Assembly (NCBI GenBank): GCA_903833215.1
Contig: CAILEM010000116.1
Location: forward strand, 1 to 33,623
Source: an uncultured Armatimonadota bacterium
GTDB taxonomy: Bacteria > Armatimonadota > Fimbriimonadia > Fimbriimonadales > Fimbriimonadaceae
Reading direction: 5' to 3'
Length of the DNA stretch: 33,623 bases
Positions 3,115 through 30,492 of the stretch are shown in pieces. Position numbers and translations under genes: made by a program. Each line of letters opens with the position of its first letter. The first letter of the stretch is position 1. Below the pieces are notes generated by a model, which was not told the DNA's origin, ran no database searches, and saw only the letters and a list, made by a program, of their open reading frames with translations.

Positions 3115-3693
3115 ATGGATTCCCTCAAGAGCCGTCACGATATCAGCTACTTGCTCGACCGCTGTAGACGCAAGGACTCCAGAGCATGGTCCGAACTGGT
3201 CGACATGTACGAAGCGATGGTGTATTCCGTCGCCCGAAGACATGGGCTGGACCGGGATGACGCCAACGATGTGTTTGTCGTGACCTTCCAAACTCTGCTC
3301 AAGAATCTCGACAAGATCGAATCTCCCGTAGCGTTGCCAAAGTGGATTGGCGTCACAGCAAGCCGAGAGTGCCTACGCGTCCTTCGAATTTCTGGACGCA
3401 GTACAGGATATGAGGTCGCTGGTATCACTTTGGACGAGTTGGTCGCTCACGAGGACGAGTTGGCAGACCAATCTGCCATTAAAGCCGAGCAGGCTCATCA
3501 CCTACGATCTGTACTCCACAAGATCACTGAGAAGTGCCGCAAACTCCTCAAGATGCTGTACTTCGATGAAGAGAGCAGCTACTCGGAGATAAGCGAGAAG
3601 TTAGGAATGCCGATCGGTGCCATCGGGCCAACGCGTGGACGATGCCTGGAATCGCTTCGGACGGCACTTCGATCAGAAGGTTTCTTTGATTGA
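3115..3693 (+). CDS. ECF-subfamily RNA polymerase sigma factor (CHAT cassette)
   Basis: This 192-residue protein has the two-domain ECF sigma layout. Region 2 covers about residues 20-90 (AWSELVDMYEAMVYSVARRHGLDRDDANDVFVVTF), binding core polymerase and the -10 element. Region 4 covers about 125-185 (KCRKLLKMLYFDEESSYSEISEKLGMPIGAIGPTRGRCLESLR), a helix-turn-helix for the -35 element. ATG 3115 is the first possible start after an in-frame stop at 3100. It is the first gene of a four-gene plus-strand cassette with a zinc-finger anti-sigma-like protein 42 bases downstream, then a TPR-CHAT protease and a subtilase. By analogy with other ECF loci it probably transcribes its own operon, but I found no clear autoregulated promoter. 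Confidence 0.88.
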   Translation: MDSLKSRHDISYLLDRCRRKDSRAWSELVDMYEAMVYSVARRHGLDRDDANDVFVVTFQTLLKNLDKIESPVALPKWIGVTASRECLRVLRISGRSTGYEVAGITLDELVAHEDELADQSAIKAEQAHHLRSVLHKITEKCRKLLKMLYFDEESSYSEISEKLGMPIGAIGPTRGRCLESLRTALRSEGFFD

Positions 3694-3735
3694 GATGTAT
3701 CAAGCGGATAGATCACCTGCTCTTAAAAAACGTAC

Positions 3736-4269
3736 ATGAGAGATACTTGCAGTCGATTTCGGTCCCGCCTGGCAGATGCTGCGGAAGGAAACACCAACGT
3801 TGAGCTGGCAGAACACTTAGGTCAGTGCACGGTGTGTTCGCAAATCATCAGCGAGTATAAAACCATTTTCGCCACCGCAAGTGGCCTTTGGGAGTCAGCA
3901 CCACTCGAATCGATTCAACTCGCCAAGGCACTCATGCCAGAGACAAGACGAGTTCTTTTTGCGAAACGGTTGAGCGTTGGGGCGGCAGCCACGGCGAGAG
4001 GTCCTCAAGAGGAATTCCAAGTTTTGGTCGGCGGTGAAGATATTTCCATGCGCCTCATGGCAACACCTACGACCGAAGGTTGGAGCATTCGCGGAAAAGT
4101 GCCCAATGCAGACTGGATTGTGTACGCCGAAAACGCGGTGCAAATGCCAGATGGACGATTTGAATTCACTGTCCCAACTTTGGAGGACTCCTCGTTTGAC
4201 GTTTTGGGCGAGGATACCATCCTTCAAGTTCCTGCCCTGTCTCAGTTAATGACCTATGACAGCGACTGA
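3736..4269 (+). CDS. Soluble zinc-finger anti-sigma-like regulator
   Basis: This 177-residue protein carries the HxxxCxxC zinc-binding signature of ZAS anti-sigma factors in EHLGQCTVCSQII (His27, Cys31, Cys34), preceded by a short helix. Such domains clamp ECF sigma factors. Unlike most members it has no hydrophobic segment long enough to cross a membrane, so it should be cytoplasmic. The rest (about 90-177) looks beta-rich (FQVLVGGEDISMRLMATPTTEGWSIRGKV) and belongs to no family I recognise. It could sense a ligand or be a substrate of the neighbouring protease. Its last 14 bases overlap the start of the CHAT gene, indicating coupled translation. Anti-sigma function is inferred from the motif and position after the sigma gene. 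Confidence 0.75.
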   Translation: MRDTCSRFRSRLADAAEGNTNVELAEHLGQCTVCSQIISEYKTIFATASGLWESAPLESIQLAKALMPETRRVLFAKRLSVGAAATARGPQEEFQVLVGGEDISMRLMATPTTEGWSIRGKVPNADWIVYAENAVQMPDGRFEFTVPTLEDSSFDVLGEDTILQVPALSQLMTYDSD

Positions 4270-6889
4270 ACTCGTTGAGCGAATCATTAGCGATCCCACT
4301 CAAGCCGCGAAGCTCTTGGCGAAATCTGATGCCAGGCCGGGGACCAGCCGAGCATTCTTCGACCACGTCTTTCATTTGTATGGAGAGGATCATGCCAGGT
4401 TGGCGAGTCTTCGTTCAGCGTCAAAGGTCATCGTTCGGTATGGCGACGATCCCGCATTTGGCTACCGCTCCCTCGGGATCGTCGAAAGGACAAACGGTCG
4501 ATGGGCGGCAAGCGCCCAGGCTTTCCTTAAGGCAGGTGAGTTGGCGTCAACTTCACGAGACAGATTGACCTTCCAAATCGGTGCCATTGACGGGCTCGCA
4601 CGAGCAGGTCAGATCGACGAGGCTCTCCTCCTTGGACACAAGCTGTCGACTGAGCTGAATGAGTCTGGTGCCCATGGCATCGCGGCACGAGCTCAATTGA
4701 ATCTAGGCTATGCTCTCATGGAGCAAGATCGCTACGCCGAGGCAATCTCAGAGTTAACTGATCTGCCAGAACAACTCAAGTCAGCGGGATTTGACCTTGA
4801 GGCAACCTCTAGTCGGCTTGCACTCTCCACAAGCCTACTCTTCGGCGGAGAAGCATCTGACGCAAGAAAGGAGGCGGAACTAGCAGTAAAAGAAGCGCAA
4901 GGACAAGGAAACCACCTGCTTGCCCGCATAGCCCGAGGAAACATCGCCTATGCCGATATTCTTTCTGGCGATATTGATAAAGCTGTCACCGCCCTTCTGG
5001 TCCTAAGAAAGGAGCACGAGGATGAACCCGTTGAAATGGCGCGTGTTCTTGAGTACCTCGGGGATGCCTACCTGGCGATGAATATGTTTTCTGAGGCAAC
5101 CGATGCCTTTCACGAAGCTGAAGACCTCAATGTCAACGTATCAGCACTACATAAAGTGCATCTGCGCTATGGGGCGGGACTCGCATTACTCGCCGCAGAT
5201 CGTCTACAGGAAGCCAATTCGCAATTTCGTTTCGCGTTTCAGCAATTCAAGAAACTGGGCAACTCACCTTGGGCAGTTGCTGCTGAAGCTGATCTTGCCT
5301 TTTCAGAAATATGCCTCGGCGCACCATCCGGTAAGCGTCGCTTGCGCAGATCCGTCCAAACCGCAAAACGCTCTACCAACGCCTATCAAAGGTGTCGGAT
5401 ACTTCTCCTATCTGCTGAAAACGGGGGACCGCCAGTAGATTTGGCGGAAGCGGGCAGATTGATCAAACAGCATGGCTTCTTTCGCTGGACATGGCGATTT
5501 CACGCGGAACAAGCTCGGCGGACAACCGGACGGAGTCGGCTATCCCATTTCCGAAAGATGTTTCGCGCAATTCTGGCCGACCAGGCGAGAACTTCATCGG
5601 TAGCGGCCAAGCTCAGGTTCCTATTTGACAAGCATAAAGCACTGCGAGCCTATTTGGATGAATTGCTGCTGACTCCCACTCCAACAAAGCTAAAAGAGGC
5701 AATTGAGGTGATCACTCAGTCTCGTGCAGTGGCGCTATTGGACGAGGTGCTTCTTAGCCGCCGATCCGGTCAATCTGAATCTGTCCTAATGGCCCTCACT
5801 GAACTGCGTGAACAGATCAACACCGGAGAGACACCCACCAACCACGGCAGCAGTCGTCGGGCCGCTCTCGCGAGCATCAATCTGGACCATTTGCAGAGGA
5901 TGTGGATCGAAGAAACCTATCTTGAGACTCCGAGCGGTCTGCAAAGGAAGGTCATGATCAGCGCACCAGATGACTCTCTACTGTATATCTCTGGGCCAGC
6001 TTCCTATCGAGTCTTGAGTAAATCTGGAGTCGTTGACCTTGCTGTCACTGAGGCCGATCTTGAATCGAGGCTTGAATGGCTAAGCTACGAAATCCTGGCT
6101 CCGATGGCTGATCCGAAAGCTGACCCAGCACCTGCTCTTAGTGCGTTGAGAGACATCGCCAAGGATCTCTTGCTTCCAATGGTGACCTCAAATCAGCAAC
6201 TGGGAATATGTCCCGAGGGTGGACTCTGGCGAGTGCCTTGGATTGCTTGCTTGGATACGCTAGGCATTGAAAAGGATTTAGACCTTCGGCTCCATCCCGC
6301 TTTTCAGGGCCGGCACGTGGAGATCGATCCTGCGAGGGCGATGGTGTGGATAGCAGATCACTCGGACCTGCCCCGCGCTAACGATGAGTTGCGAGCGTTC
6401 CAAGACCAATATCCAGATGCAGTTGTTTGCAGGTCTTCCAGCGAAGTTCGAGAAGCACTGACTCTTAGCCACGTCTCCATTCTGCACGTCATTTCACACG
6501 CCCGTTTCCGTGCTGGGCATCCAATGTTCTCCTCGCTTGACTTTACGGATGGCCCCGTCTTGGCGACTGAAATCGCAAGAAGTGGATTCTCCGCTCAAGT
6601 AGTGACGCTTTCCGGCTGTGACACAGCTAGAGTCTCCGACATCCATCGTTTTGAACCAGATGGTCTCGTAAGAGCATTTCTCGCCTGCGGCGCTGGCTAC
6701 GTGGTCGGAAGCGCATGGCCTCTGGATGATGAGGCGGCGATGCGTTTCTACTCAACGTTCTTCAAATCTCTCAGGTCCTCCGCAAATATCCACCAATCAC
6801 TACGCATTGCCCGCACTACTGTGCGACTATGGAAGGGACACCCCTATTTCTGGGCCTTCCCGCTTCTCTACGCAGGATATCGTTCATGA
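4256..6889 (+). CDS. TPR-CHAT caspase-like cysteine protease
   Basis: The 877-residue protein has an N-terminal two-thirds of helical tetratricopeptide-like repeats, for example ARAQLNLGYALMEQDRYAEAISEL and EYLGDAYLAMNMFSEATDAFHEAEDL. The C-terminal CHAT domain covers about residues 590-877. The catalytic pair of this caspase-related family is visible: His748 in LHVISHARF and Cys788 in LSGCDTA. The conserved tail GYVVGSAWPLDDEAAMRFYSTFF..SLRIAR is also present. There is no signal peptide, so it should act in the cytoplasm. TPR-CHAT proteins are proteases whose repeats sense a partner; the best-studied case is the type III-E CRISPR Craspase, which cleaves a sigma-inhibiting protein. Here the gene overlaps the zinc-finger gene by 14 bases and the subtilase by 4, making the anti-sigma-like protein or the subtilase obvious candidate partners. 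Substrate and trigger are unknown. Confidence 0.85.
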   Translation: MTATELVERIISDPTQAAKLLAKSDARPGTSRAFFDHVFHLYGEDHARLASLRSASKVIVRYGDDPAFGYRSLGIVERTNGRWAASAQAFLKAGELASTSRDRLTFQIGAIDGLARAGQIDEALLLGHKLSTELNESGAHGIAARAQLNLGYALMEQDRYAEAISELTDLPEQLKSAGFDLEATSSRLALSTSLLFGGEASDARKEAELAVKEAQGQGNHLLARIARGNIAYADILSGDIDKAVTALLVLRKEHEDEPVEMARVLEYLGDAYLAMNMFSEATDAFHEAEDLNVNVSALHKVHLRYGAGLALLAADRLQEANSQFRFAFQQFKKLGNSPWAVAAEADLAFSEICLGAPSGKRRLRRSVQTAKRSTNAYQRCRILLLSAENGGPPVDLAEAGRLIKQHGFFRWTWRFHAEQARRTTGRSRLSHFRKMFRAILADQARTSSVAAKLRFLFDKHKALRAYLDELLLTPTPTKLKEAIEVITQSRAVALLDEVLLSRRSGQSESVLMALTELREQINTGETPTNHGSSRRAALASINLDHLQRMWIEETYLETPSGLQRKVMISAPDDSLLYISGPASYRVLSKSGVVDLAVTEADLESRLEWLSYEILAPMADPKADPAPALSALRDIAKDLLLPMVTSNQQLGICPEGGLWRVPWIACLDTLGIEKDLDLRLHPAFQGRHVEIDPARAMVWIADHSDLPRANDELRAFQDQYPDAVVCRSSSEVREALTLSHVSILHVISHARFRAGHPMFSSLDFTDGPVLATEIARSGFSAQVVTLSGCDTARVSDIHRFEPDGLVRAFLACGAGYVVGSAWPLDDEAAMRFYSTFFKSLRSSANIHQSLRIARTTVRLWKGHPYFWAFPLLYAGYRS

Positions 6890-8094
6890 AAAAAATCGCC
6901 TCTGGTCTTTCGTTCTTAGTTGCAGCACTGACGGTGAGCGTCGCCGACGCTCAGACGAATATCATTTGCCGCCTGAATCCTGGTGTCTCGCCCACAACGA
7001 TCGCAACGCGCTATTCGCTGACTCTGTTGGACTACACGCCAAACGCGCCCTTCGCTATGTTTAGCGCCACGGACGACCAAACGATCAGCAATATGCAGAA
7101 TGATCCTGCAATCGTATGGCTCGAAGACGACTGCAGTGTAGGAGCGCCAGAAGACGAATCGAAAGGAAAACCAACGAAAGGCGGTGGCCTACCAGCAGTG
7201 GGTGATCGAACCGGGCTACAAAGAATTAATGGTCGTTTGCTTTCTCAAATCGACTGGAATGCGAAAGTCGCAAATTCAGCTGGAAGAGTCGTGCGAGTTG
7301 CGATTTTGGATACAGGATTGGCACCAAAGCAGAAGGCACTGTGGGCCAAGGTCGACCTAAGCATGAATGCAGTCGAACCCAATAGTCCTGCTTACGATAT
7401 TCCCCACAATATGGATTCCAACGGGAACGGCATCAAAGATCAGGCGGTGGGCCACGGGACGATGGTTGCTGGCATCATCGACCAGATATCGCCGAAGTCA
7501 CGGTTTGTGATTGCGCGGGTTGCGGACTCAGACGGTCTTGCTTCAGGTTGGAGCGTGATCAAAGGCTTGGCATTCGCCGTTACCTCAAATGCCGAAGTCG
7601 CCAATGTGTCGCTCGGCACACTACTAGAAGTACCCGCGCTTGGCGACGTCGTCGATTGGTGTCTGGCAAACAACCTTCTCATCGTCGCTCCCATCGGAAA
7701 CAACGGAGCCGAAGCGGCCTGCTACCCCAGCCGGTTTGAAAGTGTTGTCTGTGTTGGAGGCCTGGACGTCCTCAACCACAAGGCCAGTTTCAGCAACTTC
7801 AATCAAGTTTGCACGGTTTCTGCTCCCGCTATTGGCTTTGCGAGCCAATTCTGGGATGGTCACTTGGCCTACTGGTCGGGAACATCATTCGCATCTCCAG
7901 TCGTTGCTGCCGTGGTTGCCGAGTCACTGCGACACACATCGCCGTCCGCTCCCGATACTATTAAGGCGGCTCTCCAGACATCAGGTCCATCGCTTGACCG
8001 ACTCAATCCGAAGTACAAACAGAAGCTCGGAGTCTTGATCGACTTTTCCAGGACAATCAAGAAGGTCGGGAGTCCAGGCAACCCCGGTCCGTAG
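6886..8094 (+). CDS. Secreted S8 subtilisin-like serine protease
   Basis: I place the start at ATG 6886, which overlaps the CHAT stop as ATGA and gives a proper signal peptide (MKKIASGLSFLVAALTVSVADA). The 402-residue product then has an I9-like propeptide (about 23-90), a linker, and an S8 catalytic domain. The triad is Asp142 (ILDTG), His190 (GHGTMVAG) and Ser334 (SGTSFASP), with the oxyanion Asn272 in PIGNNG. All catalytic residues are intact, so it should mature by autoprocessing in the periplasm or outside the cell. It is the last gene of the sigma/anti-sigma/CHAT cassette and is followed by a hairpin at 8127-8154. Its export separates it physically from the CHAT protease, so a direct cascade would need one of them to relocate or cells to lyse. 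The role is otherwise open. Confidence 0.9.
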   Translation: MKKIASGLSFLVAALTVSVADAQTNIICRLNPGVSPTTIATRYSLTLLDYTPNAPFAMFSATDDQTISNMQNDPAIVWLEDDCSVGAPEDESKGKPTKGGGLPAVGDRTGLQRINGRLLSQIDWNAKVANSAGRVVRVAILDTGLAPKQKALWAKVDLSMNAVEPNSPAYDIPHNMDSNGNGIKDQAVGHGTMVAGIIDQISPKSRFVIARVADSDGLASGWSVIKGLAFAVTSNAEVANVSLGTLLEVPALGDVVDWCLANNLLIVAPIGNNGAEAACYPSRFESVVCVGGLDVLNHKASFSNFNQVCTVSAPAIGFASQFWDGHLAYWSGTSFASPVVAAVVAESLRHTSPSAPDTIKAALQTSGPSLDRLNPKYKQKLGVLIDFSRTIKKVGSPGNPGP

Positions 8095-10050: not shown

Positions 10051-13000
10051 TCATTTTTGCTGCTTCATGAGGAAGTCGATGATCGCTGCATACTGCTCGT
10101 CCGGCTTTTGGAAGTTGGGCATCTGGGTACCAGGACTGAATGCTTGCGGATCCCTGAGGAAGCGCAGTAACCAGTCCTTCTTCAGACGCACTGGAACTAA
10201 GCCAAGGTCTGGGCCAAGTTTCTTAGTCGCCGCACCACCAGAAACTCCCTGCTTGCCCGCCAAAGGATGGCAACTTTGACACTTGAGATCTTCAAAGTAC
10301 TTCGCACCCGATTGGGCGAGGGGGAATACCTTTTGATCGGGCGGTGTGTATTCGTAAGGCGCTGGCTGGTTCGCCAGTGCCATCAGATATTCCGTCAACG
10401 TTGTCGCTTCCTTGTCTGACAAGTGGTAGTGAGGCATTCGTGCGTCTTGCCACCACCGGATTCGGGCCGGTTGCTTTAAGAACTCGAACAACCAACCAGG
10501 ACGGACCATTTCGCCTTCCCGTGTCAGTTCAGGACCAACCTTCCCCCCTTGACCGGCGATACGATGGCAGGCGAAGCAGTCGTGCTGCTCAAAGATCTTC
10601 CTTCCCGCTAAGAGTGAGGTTCCTTGTTCACGAAGGTCCTTGGTGTACTCTGGGGCCAATTCCTGCGACGAGAGCGACATCAGATACACCGCGATCGTTT
10701 TAGCATCATCCTTTTCGAGACCAAATTTGGGCATCTTGCCCTTGAATTTCTCTGAATCGAAAGACCGTGGGTCCGTAATCTTTGTGACGATGTAGTCGTA
10801 TAAATCCTTCTTAACCGTCTTCGCATTTCCGAATTCAAGAATATCAGCACTTTTATCTCCGATACTCGTCAACTCCGGCGCTGAGATCTTTTCGAAGCCC
10901 TTGATGTCGTGACACGCTGCACATCCTCGTTCCGCGATTAGCTGTGCCCCTCGATCTCGGGCATCGCGGTCTCGAAGGTTCGGCATGATGTCGATCTTTT
11001 GAGCTTCCTTTTCACCCACCGACATCAAGTAATCCCCGATGAGCATGCATTGATCTTTGCTCAAGTTAAAAACAGGCATCTTACTATTCGGGAAGTAAGC
11101 CTTTGGATTTGCGATCCAACCGTACAGCCAGTCTGAATTAACTTTGGTGCGTATATTTGTCAGTTCGGGCGCAAACGAAGCTCCTTCTCCACGGATGGTG
11201 TGACAACCCAAGCAACCTAAATTAACAGTCAGGCGCTTTCCGAGCGCCAATCGTTGAGCATTTGGTATCGCCGTATTCGGCAGTGCTGCTGAATCAGAAG
11301 CTCCCTTCTGGGTCAGAAGGAACGATGCGATCGACATCGCCTGATCCTTAGCAAGACCAAGATTTGGCATTCGCGCATCAAGCGAGTGGGATTGGGGATT
11401 TCTGAGCCAACCGACTAGCCAAGTCGGTTGAAGCTTTTCGCTGACACGATCAAGATCGGGGCCCGCTTTGGGCATCGCCGACTGAATCTCTTTTACGTTC
11501 TGTCCCAGACTCCCCAGCGACTGAAGGGACTCAACCTTGTGGCAGCCCAGGCAGCCGGAATTCTTGAACAGTTTAGCGCCAGCCAAATAGGTTGCCTCAC
11601 CGGAAAGCTGACGTGTTTCTCCATGACATTTGCCACAGGAACTTTGAACTTGATCGCCAACAAGAAGCGGTTTGCCTTTCCCAATGATTCCGCCATGGGC
11701 TTCATTTTTGGTCAGAGCATTACCCCACCCGCCGTGGCAACTCACGCAGCCAAATCGTTCGGAGGGGTGATACTTTAGAAGTTCTGGCGAGTGAGTTCGG
11801 AATGGCTCTGCCGTCGTTTCAAAACCCGTCTGCTCGACCGCACGGTGGCACGTCGTACAGCGATCAATCGCACCAAGGCGATCGACAAAAGTCTGTTCAA
11901 CCTCAGGAGCTCCATTCAGGTTTCTTGTCAATCGGCCTTCAATCAAGCGGAGATCTCGCTGGAGATCCTCTACGTGCGACTGTAGGCTAGCGCTTGATTG
12001 CCGTAGGCGCTTAAGCTCATCGGCACCGGTCGCATTCACCTGATTCTTTGAAGTCAGTTCAGCGAGAGTTTTGACATCTGCAGCCCATTTGGCAACTTCA
12101 GCAGCCTTCTTCACGTTCGCCTTCGACACCTCCAAATCCACATTCAGCTTTGCTACGTTTTCGGTTTGCTTTGCATCTTTGAGGTGAGCGTCGGATACTT
12201 GGTGCCGGAGTGCTTCGCCTTCAGGAAGCCCAATGACTTCCTTGGTATGAACTCGCTGTGCGATAAGCAGATCTCGATCCGCAGCCTCAAGTCGAGACTT
12301 CGCACCGTCGATGTCTGGCTTGAAGTCGGCTTCCTCGTAGGCGGAGGAAGAGGAGGCACTGACTGCCGTGGTGGCAACTCCCTTGGCCGTGCTTACTGCT
12401 GGCTTGGCGACATCCTTGAACTCCTTATCTAGCTCATCCAATTCTGAATTCGCACCCTTTGCGGAAGTGGGTGTTTTGGAGGGGACGGTGGGCTGAGTCG
12501 CTGAGGTCTTTGCTGGAGTATCTTTGAATTCCTTGTCAAGCTCTGCCAAGTCCGCATCATTCGGCTTGCCCGCAGGCTTTGATGTACTGGGCTTTGTGGT
12601 CTTCGTACCACTGTCGCCAAACTCCTTATCGAGGTCGGCAAGCTCCTTGTCGGATGCTTTAGCTGCTGGCTTTGCCTGTGTGGATTTCGGTTCAGGCACG
12701 GGAGCGGCACCCTTCCCAGCGTTACCTGAGAACTCCTTGTCTAGGTCATCAAGTTCATTCTTGGTTGGCTTGACAGGAGCTGCTCCTGGCTTTGCAGGTG
12801 CAGGTGATGCCGCAGCTTCAGGCGATCCACCCTCTTCGGAGTTACCTGCGTTGAGCCGAACTTCCATCTCCTCCAGATCTGCCTCGGTCGTTTCAAGCTC
12901 TGCTGAAGCGACGTCCACCTTTGCTTTTACATTCAGATACGCCTTCTTGGCCTTATCGTAGTCTTCTTGGTACGTGGGGTGGCTTATCTGTTGCTGAAGT

Positions 13001-13197
13001 TCTGCCTTCTTCTGGATTAAAATCCCACGCTCAATTTGGGAAAATTTTAACTGATAGGCTAACCACTCAGGATGGGTGTCTTTGAACATAGAAATGCCCA
13101 TCACGATGAGCACCACAACGCTCATTAAGAAGAAAAGAAAGTTCATGCGGAGGCCGGTTCGGACCTCCCTCTTATGTCGCCCTACTGCCACGGCCAT
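10051..13197 (-). CDS. Membrane-anchored octahaem c-type cytochrome of a Rieske/cytochrome b complex
   Basis: I chose ATG 13197 because GGAGGT lies 4 bases upstream; a GTG at 13209 is the alternative. The 1048-residue product has one N-terminal membrane span (about 20-45: LRMNFLFFLMSVVVLIVMG), then a charged coiled-coil region. This is followed by four spaced copies of a LxxLDKEF motif (about 150-275) and another coiled coil. Eight CxxCH haem sites start near residue 445: CTTCH, CVSCH, CGKCH, CLGCH, CLGCH, CAACH, CFACH and CQSCH. The first three form a compact trihaem unit. The last five are class I cytochrome c modules about 100 residues apart, each with a downstream Met ligand (ARMPN, SKMPV, GKMPK, ARMPH, TQMPN). 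It overlaps the subunit IV-like gene by 16 bases and takes the place of cytochrome c1 or f, so it should accept electrons from the Rieske protein in the periplasm. Confidence 0.88.
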   Translation of the reverse strand: MAVAVGRHKREVRTGLRMNFLFFLMSVVVLIVMGISMFKDTHPEWLAYQLKFSQIERGILIQKKAELQQQISHPTYQEDYDKAKKAYLNVKAKVDVASAELETTEADLEEMEVRLNAGNSEEGGSPEAAASPAPAKPGAAPVKPTKNELDDLDKEFSGNAGKGAAPVPEPKSTQAKPAAKASDKELADLDKEFGDSGTKTTKPSTSKPAGKPNDADLAELDKEFKDTPAKTSATQPTVPSKTPTSAKGANSELDELDKEFKDVAKPAVSTAKGVATTAVSASSSSAYEEADFKPDIDGAKSRLEAADRDLLIAQRVHTKEVIGLPEGEALRHQVSDAHLKDAKQTENVAKLNVDLEVSKANVKKAAEVAKWAADVKTLAELTSKNQVNATGADELKRLRQSSASLQSHVEDLQRDLRLIEGRLTRNLNGAPEVEQTFVDRLGAIDRCTTCHRAVEQTGFETTAEPFRTHSPELLKYHPSERFGCVSCHGGWGNALTKNEAHGGIIGKGKPLLVGDQVQSSCGKCHGETRQLSGEATYLAGAKLFKNSGCLGCHKVESLQSLGSLGQNVKEIQSAMPKAGPDLDRVSEKLQPTWLVGWLRNPQSHSLDARMPNLGLAKDQAMSIASFLLTQKGASDSAALPNTAIPNAQRLALGKRLTVNLGCLGCHTIRGEGASFAPELTNIRTKVNSDWLYGWIANPKAYFPNSKMPVFNLSKDQCMLIGDYLMSVGEKEAQKIDIMPNLRDRDARDRGAQLIAERGCAACHDIKGFEKISAPELTSIGDKSADILEFGNAKTVKKDLYDYIVTKITDPRSFDSEKFKGKMPKFGLEKDDAKTIAVYLMSLSSQELAPEYTKDLREQGTSLLAGRKIFEQHDCFACHRIAGQGGKVGPELTREGEMVRPGWLFEFLKQPARIRWWQDARMPHYHLSDKEATTLTEYLMALANQPAPYEYTPPDQKVFPLAQSGAKYFEDLKCQSCHPLAGKQGVSGGAATKKLGPDLGLVPVRLKKDWLLRFLRDPQAFSPGTQMPNFQKPDEQYAAIIDFLMKQQK

Positions 13198-13877
13198 ACC
13201 CACCTCCACTCCGGACCTCGGAAGAACTGGCCAATCATAACCAGAACGAAAACGATTCCAACAAACACCAAGAACAGGCGCTTGCGTAGCACCTCGACGC
13301 GTGCTTCATCATCGAAGTAAGGATTCAATAACAGCTTTCCTATCCCGAATGCACTGATGATGAGCATGATGAATGTCGGGAAACCGAGGCTTCGCGTTGC
13401 ATCCGCAAACCCCGGCGCGACGGCGTGGATGCCAGCCCAAACGATTCCATCTAGGAGCGGTAACAGGATCGCCGATAGCAAGAACATAATCGGCATCAGC
13501 GACATACGGCCCCGCCAGTATGGAATGGTACACATCACCATAACGAGTAGCCCGGGAATGAAAACACCCGAAATAAAGGGGGGGGCATAGTGAAGCATTT
13601 CTTGAAGCGATAAGAAATACCAGGGCGCTTTCGCTGGGTTTGGTGTCTTGCTGGCATTCGCGAGCTCTTCAAGAGGGGCATCGAAAAGGAACGAGACCAC
13701 AAGTAGGGTAGCGAGCATCAATCCAAAAGCTAAGAACTCTCGTGCGACGAGATGTGGATAGCTAGATATCCGTTCGACATCTGTGTCCGGGATATTTCCC
13801 GGGTGACCTTCAATGAACCCGAGAAGACCGTATTCTTTGTCTTTTTGGGCGTTGCCTGAGGAACCTGGATTCATCAT
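13182..13877 (-). CDS. Cytochrome b C-terminal subunit (subunit IV/PetD-like)
   Basis: This 231-residue membrane protein has about four hydrophobic helices and the menaquinol-type signature PNPAKAPWYFLSLQEMLHY, which forms part of the quinol-oxidation (Qo) site. The sequence is APWYF where bc1 and b6f complexes have PEWY, so the canonical glutamate is missing and the downstream Glu of QEML may substitute. The C-terminus holds the FFRGPEW motif seen in split cytochrome b subunits. It overlaps the cytochrome b6-like gene through ATGATG/TGA and is preceded by a strong GGAGGT. The second Met (13874) fits the ribosome site slightly better. Together with the upstream gene it makes a b6f-like split cytochrome b. 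Confidence 0.88.
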   Translation of the reverse strand: MMNPGSSGNAQKDKEYGLLGFIEGHPGNIPDTDVERISSYPHLVAREFLAFGLMLATLLVVSFLFDAPLEELANASKTPNPAKAPWYFLSLQEMLHYAPPFISGVFIPGLLVMVMCTIPYWRGRMSLMPIMFLLSAILLPLLDGIVWAGIHAVAPGFADATRSLGFPTFIMLIISAFGIGKLLLNPYFDDEARVEVLRKRLFLVFVGIVFVLVMIGQFFRGPEWRWVWPWQ

Positions 13878-22741: not shown

Positions 22742-23269
22742 TTGTTCAGGAAGGAGTTAGATGAACGGTTTGAGAGGGAGATCATGCGCCATGTCGACGC
22801 GGCCTACAACCTGTCGCTGTGGCTGCTTCGGGACCCCCATGACGCAGAAGATGCAACCCAGTCGGCTCTCTTTAAAGCATTTCGCGCCTTTGGCAGGATG
22901 CGGAGCACAGATGCAAAGCCTTGGCTCCTCGCAATTGTCAGAAACGAATGTATGGACCTACTCCATTCCAGGTCTGTGCGAACCCGTTCCGAACACCCTA
23001 CAGATGATGTTTTGGACTTTGCAGAGGCGACCGAACTCGATCCCGAGGGGGCTGCCATTCAATCTCTAGATGCTGAAGCCGTTCTCGGTGCCATAAACCA
23101 GCTTCCTCCCGAATTTCGTGAAGTGATCATTCTTCGCGAAATTGAGGAGCTATCCTATCGAGAGATTGCAGGAGTGATCAATAAGCCAGTCGGCACCGTG
23201 ATGTCACGGTTGGCGAGGGCCAGGACACGGCTTCAACTCATGCTAACTTCGACAGGTGAATGCGTATGA
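22742..23269 (+). CDS. ECF-subfamily sigma factor (second pair)
   Basis: This 175-residue RpoE-like sigma has region 2 at about 15-75 (HVDAAYNLSLWLLRDPHDAEDATQSALFKAFRAF) and region 4 at about 115-165 (LPPEFREVIILREIEELSYREIAGVINKPVGTVMSRLARAR). I accept the TTG at 22742, because AGGAG lies 8 bases upstream, an in-frame stop lies just before, and the next Met (22784) would cut into region 2. It overlaps the zinc-finger anti-sigma gene as ATGA, so the two are co-translated. It is divergent from the CUT1 sugar-transporter operon and may regulate it, although this is inferred from position only. Confidence 0.9.
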   Translation: MFRKELDERFEREIMRHVDAAYNLSLWLLRDPHDAEDATQSALFKAFRAFGRMRSTDAKPWLLAIVRNECMDLLHSRSVRTRSEHPTDDVLDFAEATELDPEGAAIQSLDAEAVLGAINQLPPEFREVIILREIEELSYREIAGVINKPVGTVMSRLARARTRLQLMLTSTGECV

Positions 23270-23997
23270 ATTGCGAAACTGCACTTCAGTTGATCGATGC
23301 CTTCATGGATTCCGAATTGGATCCGTCGACCTCGCTGGAAGTGAGCACGCACATATCCGCCTGCCCAGCCTGCAAGCAGGCTTTGGAATCCCGGCAAGCT
23401 CTCAGCAAAGCGATCAAGCTGGCTGCCGCTTTTGCGCCAGCGCCTGCAGCACTGAGGGGTCAGATTCGACACAAGATCCAGCCAAGACCTCACTTCAGGT
23501 ATGGGATTGCTGCCTTCGGAATGGCAGCAGTCGTTGCCGCTTGTTTTGGTTTCGCAACCTGGAAGAAGAATTCGGACCTTAGGCGTGACCAAGATCAAGT
23601 TATTAGCGACGTCATGGCACACTATCAGGCATCTGAGTCCAGTGCGCATATCGTCGATATCCGTAGCAAAGAATGCGGTTCTCTCAAGAATTGGTTTAAT
23701 TCGAAAGTGAATTGGTCACCGAAGGTCTACCGACTCTTCAGCCAACCTTTCACGATGGTTGGGGGGCGGGTCGATTTGGTGGGAAATCAGGCAGCACCAG
23801 TGATTGTCTATCGCAGCGGTAACTCCAATGTCGACGTTTTTGTCACTCCTAGTGTCGATGTCAAACCGCGTAACGTGGATGCGCAAGGACTGCATGTTCG
23901 GTCGTGGTCCGATTCTGGACATGACTACTATGCGGTCTCGAATGGCTCGCCTGCAGAGATTAACGCCGTTCAATCCGCACTCAAGGTTTGTCGATAA
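23266..23997 (+). CDS. Transmembrane zinc-finger anti-sigma factor
   Basis: I start at ATG 23266, which overlaps the sigma stop as ATGA and sits 6 bases after AGGTGA; an ATG two codons earlier leaves no room for the ribosome site. The 243-residue protein has an N-terminal ZAS finger (His29, Cys33, Cys36 in THISACPACKQAL), a single membrane span (about 76-98: YGIAAFGMAAVVAACFGF) and a roughly 140-residue periplasmic domain of unknown family. This layout is the standard one for ECF anti-sigmas that hold the sigma factor at the membrane until an external signal leads to release. A strong hairpin follows directly at its stop codon. Confidence 0.85.
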   Translation: MNCETALQLIDAFMDSELDPSTSLEVSTHISACPACKQALESRQALSKAIKLAAAFAPAPAALRGQIRHKIQPRPHFRYGIAAFGMAAVVAACFGFATWKKNSDLRRDQDQVISDVMAHYQASESSAHIVDIRSKECGSLKNWFNSKVNWSPKVYRLFSQPFTMVGGRVDLVGNQAAPVIVYRSGNSNVDVFVTPSVDVKPRNVDAQGLHVRSWSDSGHDYYAVSNGSPAEINAVQSALKVCR

Positions 23998-28424: not shown

Positions 28425-28540
28425 GATATCGTTTCCTAGAAGTGATCCCCCTATCCTTACCAGGATTCGGATTTATTCATTTCATCTTGCGATGGATTCC
28501 ATGTAGGTAATTCGAAGTCTATGTGCTCGACAGGAGATCC

Positions 28541-29038
28541 ATGAGTTTGGCAATAGACTGGTTTGGAGTGAGGAAAGGCGAAGACCCGATGCGATACCTG
28601 GATGACGTATATCGTTATGCAGCCGTGCGCCTCAATCAGCGCGAGGATGCTGAAGACATCGCCATCGAAGTTGTCCAAGCCTTACCAAATCCGTGTTCCA
28701 AGTCCAATCTTAAGGTGTATATGCTGGGGATGGCAAGGCGAAAGATTGCGGACCGACTGAGAAAGGCGCGCCCCGAACAAGTGATTCGGGAATCGGAACT
28801 CAGCCATCGGTTTGATCAGAGCTTTGTCGAATCACAACTCGTAAACCAAACATTTGAACGACTGAGTGCGGAACACCGTGAAGCACTCACGCTGAAGTAC
28901 ATCGTTGGGTTAAGCAGCATTGAGATGGGAAAAGTGCTTAGCAAGCGCCCCGAAGCGGTGGATAGTTTGCTGCAAAGAGCCCGTGAGTCATTTGGAAAGT
29001 CCTGGAACGACCTGTCGAGCGATGAGGTGAAGCAGTGA
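28541..29038 (+). CDS. ECF-like sigma factor (third pair)
   Basis: I start at ATG 28541 because AGGAG sits a few bases upstream (28532-28536); a GTG at 28523 is possible. The 165-residue protein has a region 2-like helix set (YLDDVYRYAAVRLNQREDAEDIAIEVVQAL) and a region 4 HTH (LSAEHREALTLKYIVGLSSIEMGKVLSKRPEAVDSLLQRARESF). It is shorter and more divergent than the other two sigmas in the window. It overlaps the next gene by 4 bases (GTGA). It is divergent from the GH16-GH2 genes, which are candidate targets. Confidence 0.85.
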   Translation: MSLAIDWFGVRKGEDPMRYLDDVYRYAAVRLNQREDAEDIAIEVVQALPNPCSKSNLKVYMLGMARRKIADRLRKARPEQVIRESELSHRFDQSFVESQLVNQTFERLSAEHREALTLKYIVGLSSIEMGKVLSKRPEAVDSLLQRARESFGKSWNDLSSDEVKQ

Positions 29039-30492
29039 ACGAAAAAGAAATCGAACGTCTCATAAAACTACATGCGGATTCGTTAGGCGATAGCACCAAG
29101 CGAGTTCGAATACCGCACCGTGTTCCGTGGCGACGGAACATCGCAGTGGGAATGGCATCAATAGCAGTGGTAACTACTATTACGTTGACGTTATGGCCAC
29201 GCGACGTTGTGGCTGGCACCGTTGCTCGAATCAACAAACAAATCCTCAACGCCAGCACCTTCAAAACGAAGATTTCAATGGAATCAGCAAGCGGCTGGCA
29301 CACCGCCATGGAGATCTACTGCGCGGGAAACATGCGCCGGATCGACAAGAGCAAAGAGAGCCCCTTACTCGCACAAACATACATTGAGAAAGACGGTTTG
29401 CAGTATTCAAGCCTTGACTGCCAGGATTTCACGACCGTCAGCAAAATGGCACACAATGCAGGCGGCATAGGGGCTGCCGACGGCTACAGCGTGCTTGATA
29501 TCGCTAAGCAGGAGCTTGGTGTCGGAATTGGCGATAGATCTGACAACTCAACCCAAATCCAAGATCATGAACCAGTGGATGGTAGGTCAACCTACCTCGT
29601 TGTGATGGAGCAGCCGAGTAACCACACTCACCTTGAAATACTTGTCGAAAAAGAAACCGACCGACCGATTCGCGCTGAGATGCAGTCGCCAAACCCTCGA
29701 ACGAACAAAATGCAGCGGTACAAGGCGGAATACGAAGTCAACAAGCCGATCGCTGCATCCATGTTTGAAGCCGCTCCAAATCGAGAGCTCGTTCAACTTC
29801 CCGAAGACTCAAAACTTCTTGAAAACAACTGGAGTAAGCCTGTCGCAGCTATCGAAGGTACAGAGATTAGGAGTGCGACGAGGCTGGGAGACGGGACAAT
29901 TTGGCTAGCAGTGACAGTTAAGCTAAATAGCGAGTTGGCAAACCTTCCGTCGGCGGTATTTGACGATTCGGGTGTTGAATATGCCCGTACGATAGATCTC
30001 ACTCCAACCCAAGGCATGGGGGCTGATGTTCATTTATTCAATGAAGACATTGTCCTGTGTGGCTTTGTCCCTCTCAAGAATGTTCCGGGAGGCGCTTCTA
30101 GCATCACTGTGAACTTTTCAAAAAGGGATGTCGGATTTGTCGAGCCTCGAAAAAAAGAAATTCCCCTGGCCGAAGCAGTACTGGTTGATCCTGAATTAAT
30201 AGGCGGAGAGAGTCCGGCTTACTTCAAGTACCTAGGACTGAGCCACGTGATGAACACGTTATCACAAGTAGTGTGGAGTACCCGAGCCAAGGCCCTCGAA
30301 CAACATGAGAAGTATCTCGAAGCAGCGTTGGCGTACGACAAGCTCGCTGAGGCTCGCTATCGGTGGGTCAAGTATTCGGCATTCGAACCGATGCTAAGCG
30401 AAGCTCGGACGTACAGAAAACTGGGACAAATCCAGCGGGCGGACGAGCTTGAACTCAAAGCGGAAGCTCTCAAACAGTCGCAAGAGCGGTAG
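29035..30492 (+). CDS. Probable membrane anti-sigma factor with LolA/RseB-like sensor region
   Basis: The GTG start at 29035 overlaps the sigma stop as GTGA. The 485-residue protein has a short cytoplasmic N-terminus (1-34) without a zinc finger, a membrane span (about 35-54: NIAVGMASIAVVTTITLTLW) and a large periplasmic part. Residues about 60-255 resemble a LolA/RseB-type lipoprotein-binding half-barrel: DRPIRAEMQSP is followed by KMQRYKAEYEVNKPIAASMFEAAP, as in outer-membrane lipoprotein sorting-like sensors. The C-terminal 150 residues end in two TPR-like helices (YDKLAEARYRWVKYSAF, EARTYRKLGQIQRADELELK). Position after the sigma gene suggests anti-sigma function, possibly sensing envelope lipoproteins. 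This is inference from fold-like patterns, not a firm family match. Confidence 0.6.
   Translation: MNEKEIERLIKLHADSLGDSTKRVRIPHRVPWRRNIAVGMASIAVVTTITLTLWPRDVVAGTVARINKQILNASTFKTKISMESASGWHTAMEIYCAGNMRRIDKSKESPLLAQTYIEKDGLQYSSLDCQDFTTVSKMAHNAGGIGAADGYSVLDIAKQELGVGIGDRSDNSTQIQDHEPVDGRSTYLVVMEQPSNHTHLEILVEKETDRPIRAEMQSPNPRTNKMQRYKAEYEVNKPIAASMFEAAPNRELVQLPEDSKLLENNWSKPVAAIEGTEIRSATRLGDGTIWLAVTVKLNSELANLPSAVFDDSGVEYARTIDLTPTQGMGADVHLFNEDIVLCGFVPLKNVPGGASSITVNFSKRDVGFVEPRKKEIPLAEAVLVDPELIGGESPAYFKYLGLSHVMNTLSQVVWSTRAKALEQHEKYLEAALAYDKLAEARYRWVKYSAFEPMLSEARTYRKLGQIQRADELELKAEALKQSQER

Follow-up and report, generated by a model that had tools for sequence, protein, structure and literature searches.

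A four-gene cassette from an uncultured bacterium of the Armatimonadota (Fimbriimonadaceae) was found to recur in two phyla, and is probably a protease-gated switch for a sigma factor that operates independently of clustered regularly interspaced short palindromic repeats (CRISPR). The window, meaning the whole stretch of DNA that was analysed, is contig CAILEM010000116.1 (C116; 33,623 nucleotides) of a 6.2-Mb genome (GCA_903833215.1). On its plus strand, at 3115-8094, it carries genes for an extracytoplasmic function (ECF) sigma factor, an anti-sigma-like protein, a TPR-CHAT protease and an S8 subtilase, in that order. Judged from sequence conservation and by analogy with known systems, the TPR-CHAT protein would sense a cue, cut the soluble inhibitor after Arg88, and so release the sigma factor. 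Cleavage of the soluble anti-sigma by CHAT is strongly suggested by an arginine in the inhibitor's linker that is invariant in 76 of 76 sequences, together with matches to the RsiW/SigW pair. The conservation of the genes, their domain assignments, the intact active sites, and the invariance and location of Arg88 were established directly.

Sigma factor and putative soluble inhibitor

The first gene (3115..3693, plus strand, as are all four) specifies a SigW-type ECF sigma factor of 192 residues that comprises regions 2 and 4 only (Pfam Sigma70_r2/r4; Sigma70_r2, 5.6e-7) and shows group 4 similarity. It scored 66.9 bits against TIGR02937 (E 1.6e-18; cut-off 42.9), and the top solved match of the family profile was SigW (5wuq_A, E 1.2e-15).

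The second gene (3736..4269) specifies the putative inhibitor, a middle protein of 177 residues for which a Pfam search found no family. The top solved match of a profile of 47 sequences was RsiW, the SigW anti-sigma (5wuq_C, E 2.9e-4, RsiW residues 3-75). Its structure model (mean pLDDT, the predicted local distance difference test, 89) has four helices in residues 2-66, and profile and model together divide the protein into an N-terminal helical, putatively sigma-binding domain, a linker and a C-terminal beta domain. On the profile evidence, the helical domain is related to RsiW, as in class I (ZAS) anti-sigmas. When the whole inhibitor was compared by fold, nothing matched clearly, and beta-sandwiches matched only weakly (Z about 5). 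Hydropathy revealed no clear membrane span in 60 homologs, none of which had a hydrophobic 19-mer above 1.52.

The inhibitor family is hypervariable, with a mean column identity of 25%, and Arg88 (codon 3997..3999) is its only invariant column, every other being at most 88%. This arginine was present in 60/60 sequences, in 47/47 of a separate alignment of a subset, and in 76/76 after 16 new actinomycetal sequences had been added. It is preceded by Ala or Val in 63 of the 76 and followed by Gly, Ser or Ala in 66, forming an [AV]-R-[GSA] motif; in the window copy, the proposed cleavage site reads A-R↓G. In the model, Arg88 lies between strands 77-83 and 94-99, in a loop that is the lowest-confidence block (pLDDT 62) and separates the sigma-binding domain from the beta domain. 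Since it is strictly conserved in a flexible interdomain loop, Arg88 resembles a protease site, with a binding site as the main alternative.

TPR-CHAT protease

The third gene (4256..6889) encodes a TPR-CHAT protease of 877 residues, in which Pfam recognised CHAT (3.2e-26), TPRs and, weakly, the C50 separase family. Its model (pLDDT 91; predicted template modelling score, pTM, 0.90) was closest in fold to Csx29 (Z 30.7) and separase (26.9), and also matched DdvA (8rot, 21.5). The preliminary description of this DNA, made from the sequence by a model, had noted intact catalytic residues in both proteases. These were seen in the window and in all aligned homologs: CHAT His748 (codon 6497..6499) and Cys788 (codon 6617..6619) in 88/88, and Asp142/His190/Asn272/Ser334 of the subtilase in 84/84. 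The same description had reported 14-base and 4-base overlaps at the protease genes on the plus strand, and these are real: the anti-sigma and CHAT genes overlap by 14 bases, and the CHAT and S8 genes by 4. Among 25 loci, the inhibitor/CHAT overlap was kept in 24, and CHAT and S8 overlapped by exactly 4 bases in 19.

Two acidic residues, Glu711 (codon 6386..6388) and Asp825 (codon 6728..6730), were each conserved in 86/88 CHAT homologs. In the model, Glu711 lies in helix 708-718 (helix alpha-1), which follows CHAT strand 695-699, and is a candidate contact for a P1 arginine; Asp825, which begins helix 825-840, is a candidate acid of the S1 pocket, and its column holds Ser in Csx29. The P1 arginine is gripped by an acid of helix alpha-1 in gingipain-R and MALT1, and separase, which cuts after Arg, has been modelled with two acids, one of them in the N-terminal portion of helix alpha-4 (PMC4626109). 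The cut sites of Craspase are non-Arg (A↓S, L↓D, M↓K) and nonconserved (PMC11106740). The conservation of Glu711 and Asp825 near positions that, in related proteases, hold a P1 arginine fits an arginine specificity of the cassette CHAT, but is no proof of it.

Conservation of the cassette

Full-length CHAT relatives were sought in 61 and then in 291 genomes of Armatimonadota, the surroundings of the matches were read, and gene presence in the fetched loci was scored with profiles for the four families. Genome contigs were also scanned, without matches when a single sequence was used and with 11 loci when an alignment was used. Family CHAT occurred in roughly 50 of the 291 genomes. Among 54 family CHAT loci, all four genes were scored in 41, sigma, CHAT and S8 in 47, and S8 in 50; several loci scored as lacking the inhibitor do hold one adjoining sigma that the profile overlooked. 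The four loci without S8 consist of one that runs into a contig edge (L106) and three from a single genus (L120, L126, L130) that retains sigma, inhibitor and CHAT. Two gene orders were seen, sigma-inhibitor-CHAT-S8 and sigma-CHAT-inhibitor-S8 (L048, L050, L107-L111). None of about 20 unrelated CHAT genes that these searches also returned had an S8 neighbour, many of the stretches examined being short, with 1.5-kb flanks.

The alignment scan also matched an Acidimicrobiales contig on which CHAT is followed by an exported S8 (L064), and with this genome as the centre, loci were read from Acidimicrobiia and from Actinomycetota at large. Family CHAT was present in 48 of 396 sampled Actinomycetota genomes (~12%). 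All four genes were found in 14 of the 20 fetched loci, and CHAT with S8 in 18. Gene orders are shuffled in this phylum, with CHAT and S8 often divergent and sigma and inhibitor adjacent; that the gene set survives such reshuffling argues for shared function over passive linkage. Plasmid matches were to generic CHAT proteins, except for a Nonomuraea replicon with a possible S8 near CHAT. The four-gene association across two phyla, with its recurring overlaps, is more than chance, and the preliminary description, which had staked its reading on the genes being found together in other genomes, is borne out in that they widely are.

Variants of the arrangement were also observed. Two tandem subtilase genes follow CHAT in L041 (4599-7214), a duplication of the last cassette member. 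In two other operons, L049 (4186-9198) and L051 (4273-9040), CHAT is accompanied by an ECF sigma or sigma-like gene, the middle protein is long and of a different type, and the place of the subtilase is taken by an exported protein of PEP-CTERM type; these appear to be a sister kind of cassette.

Proposed mechanism and alternatives

In the proposed mechanism, the N-terminal helical domain of the RsiW-like inhibitor would keep the ECF sigma factor inactive, as the RsiW and SigW matches suggest, and the TPR domain of CHAT would sense an intracellular cue. CHAT would then cut the inhibitor after Arg88, at [AV]-R↓[GSA], a site exposed in the loop that joins the sigma-binding domain to the C-terminal beta domain, and cleavage would destabilise or remove the inhibitor and free the sigma factor. 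The subtilase, presumably co-expressed with CHAT and translationally coupled to it, may provide a second proteolytic output, exported in Armatimonadota and apparently cytoplasmic in many Actinomycetota.

Several points weigh against this mechanism. The invariant Arg88 could instead serve the binding of sigma or of CHAT. An acid at the Glu711 position is common in CHAT domains generally. Asp825 was dropped as the equivalent of the separase P1 acid, which it would precede by about one turn of their shared helix. Correlations between distance matrices also reflect species history. Lastly, the adjacency of CHAT and S8 in both phyla suggests a closer link than if the subtilase were a mere output.

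The subtilase gene (6886..8094, ATG at 6886) encodes 402 residues with an N-terminal pro-domain (Pfam Peptidase_S8, 7.8e-25; profile against solved subtilisins, 2.5e-41). An unlikely alternative is that the main axis runs from CHAT to this protein. In such a two-protease relay CHAT would process or activate the S8 zymogen, or S8 would do so to CHAT, and sigma and its anti-sigma would do no more than govern the expression of the two proteases. In either phylum the two genes lie side by side at most loci; they share the 4-base overlap in most of the loci compared (19/25), and this close pairing keeps a relay alive. A signal peptide is missing from 13 of 14 Acidimicrobiia S8s, so that there the two proteases could share a compartment. 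The preliminary description had proposed activation of the subtilase by CHAT as its second option, and had also recognised the subtilase as exported. The latter was confirmed, with a signal-peptide-like hydrophobic N-terminus of about 26 residues (6886..6963) in the window copy and an export-type N-terminus by hydropathy in 48/50 Armatimonadota S8s; the former found no support in that phylum, where S8 is exported, CHAT shows no sign of export, and a search of the S8 alignment for an invariant Arg found none. Being exported, S8 also cannot act directly on the cytoplasmic inhibitor in Armatimonadota, and the genus that has lost it while retaining the other three genes (L120, L126, L130) suggests that it is not core. 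The role of the subtilase is the least settled part of the cassette. Four Acidimicrobiia S8 genes (L168, L169, L171, L172) carry short tandem repeats (YLGNPA, PYPGGT) between the pro-domain and the catalytic domain, and these may vary in length between strains.

It is also rather unlikely that Arg88 is a binding anchor, with which the inhibitor would block the active site of CHAT and keep that protein and sigma together in a single off-state complex until a ligand frees them with no cut being made. A lone invariant residue in a flexible loop would suit such a pseudosubstrate too, but the small residue at P1' (Gly/Ser/Ala in 66/76) and the retention of the catalytic residues in every CHAT aligned (88/88) suit real substrates better.

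The window inhibitor carries a zinc-type motif, H27-x3-C31-x2-C34 (3814..3837), together with C5. An ordinary cytoplasmic operon of an ECF sigma factor and a zinc anti-sigma, sensing redox or zinc as do RsrA or ChrR, with the proteases as members of the regulon and no proteolytic control, would account for this motif. It occurs in most close relatives as well, but is absent from L041, L044, L046 and Actinomycetota; the zinc ligands have thus been lost where Arg88 never was, and such an operon is improbable as an explanation. The label of zinc-finger anti-sigma in the preliminary description accordingly holds for the window copy, but not for several of its homologs. Very improbable is a circuit in which the exported subtilase makes extracellular peptides that re-enter and bind the CHAT TPR, in the manner of Phr and Rap, so that the cassette reads extracellular protein or neighbours. 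In its favour, the TPR part aligns with Rap proteins that bind peptides (Z up to 21.7) and the Armatimonadota S8 is exported; against it, matches between helical repeats are generic, export is lacking in most of the Acidimicrobiia S8s sampled, and no peptide gene was seen. CHAT cleavage of the inhibitor is the preferred reading.

Genomic context

No CRISPR array was found near the cassettes, a crude scan of the fetched loci having returned nothing but coding repeats within a single S8 gene (L116), and no Cas7-11 or other cas-like gene was recognised among the open reading frames of the window. A Cas1 gene lies elsewhere in the genome (contig C146:1154-1828), which may therefore have a CRISPR system that is positionally unconnected with the cassette. 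A defence-island interpretation was considered and rejected, since housekeeping genes (such as transketolase, CTP synthase and cytochrome bc; named from sequence) make up most of the neighbourhood in the loci that were viewed; the role in conflict or defence hinted at in the preliminary description thus gains no support from gene context. PADLOC-DB gave weak or generic matches only (BovA, 0.0013; subtilase, 4.4e-12) and no specific system.

Some 6- and 7-mers, TGATACA among them, are repeated upstream of the sigma gene (9 of 50 Armatimonadota loci), and a few gapped pairs were commoner than in shuffled sequence (7 versus at most 4). No convincing common ECF promoter emerged from this word search; the TGATACA-like words ahead of the sigma gene's start may represent a -10 element.

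At 2314-2999, immediately ahead of the cassette, a small protein is followed by a PIN-domain protein (Pfam PIN, 2e-14), a pair with the look of a VapBC-type toxin-antitoxin; cassette neighbours differ in other loci. Two more ECF sigma-like genes, each directly followed by a candidate anti-sigma gene, lie at 22742-23997 and 28523-30492, and the first of these anti-sigmas has an H-x3-C-x2-C motif. A protein of 1052 residues with many CxxCH haem motifs (10051-13209) adjoins cytochrome b and Rieske-like genes, and a similar block flanks the cassette in L035.

Comparison with known systems

The closest parallel is Craspase (Cas7-11, Csx29, Csx30 and CASP-sigma) of type III-E CRISPR, in which Csx29 cleaves the sigma inhibitor Csx30 (PMC10028731). 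Both have a TPR-CHAT protease with a His/Cys dyad, and Csx29 is the best fold match of the cassette protein. However, the cassette has no nearby CRISPR array or Cas7-11, its CHAT is paired with a subtilase gene, and its inhibitor is a 177-residue, RsiW-like protein with one invariant arginine, whereas Craspase cut sites are nonconserved (PMC11106740). The inhibitor profile found no match among solved Csx30 chains up to E 5, and the fold comparison of the whole inhibitor likewise gave only weak matches. In the CalpL-CalpT-CalpS system of type III CRISPR, protease cleavage of an anti-sigma frees the sigma factor (PMC11229360), as is proposed here, but CalpL is a SAVED-Lon protease activated by cyclic oligoadenylate, while the cassette has a TPR-CHAT protein and no CRISPR; Pfam found no SAVED or Lon domain in that protein, only TPR, CHAT and the weak C50 match.

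Outside CRISPR, the DdvA/DdvS system of Myxococcus xanthus (DdvA, PDB 8rot) also places a TPR/CHAT-type fold in an ECF sigma/anti-sigma system. DdvA, however, is one transmembrane protein and itself the anti-sigma, whereas inhibitor and CHAT are separate and soluble in the cassette, to which a subtilase is added. SigW-RsiW, with other anti-sigmas under regulated proteolysis, provides the top solved matches and a precedent for the proteolytic release proposed here; RsiW is membrane-bound and cut by membrane proteases, while the cassette inhibitor is soluble and would be cut by a cytoplasmic CHAT. A different sort of caspase-ECF neighbourhood is found in the EACC2-caspase systems with ECF sigma factors (Kaur et al. 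2021, PMC8195603); in the parts of that account consulted, these have EACC2 and DUF1822 TPR domains, and neither an RsiW-like inhibitor with an invariant Arg nor a paired S8 is described. No account of the four-gene cassette was found in the open-access literature; most subscription papers, including the main ECF classification, lie beyond that scope, and an earlier description is possible.

The cassette is a real, widespread and apparently undescribed variant of a known principle, in which a protease cuts an anti-sigma to free its sigma factor. A bolder view, which we hold to be rather doubtful, is that it represents a stand-alone caspase-like sigma switch of both phyla, older and broader than the CRISPR versions, from which Craspase would have borrowed its protease-inhibitor-sigma arm, and in which an arginine-specific CHAT would both free sigma and control the subtilase in a two-protease relay. 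CHAT proteases are known to control sigma factors in rare CRISPR loci, and a CRISPR-free version, if true, would make such control a common regulatory pathway. One arginine of the inhibitor and one cysteine of the protease would then control the switch, the inhibitors would provide CHAT proteases, few of whose targets are known, with natural substrates, and the cassette would offer a possible origin for the sigma arm of Craspase.
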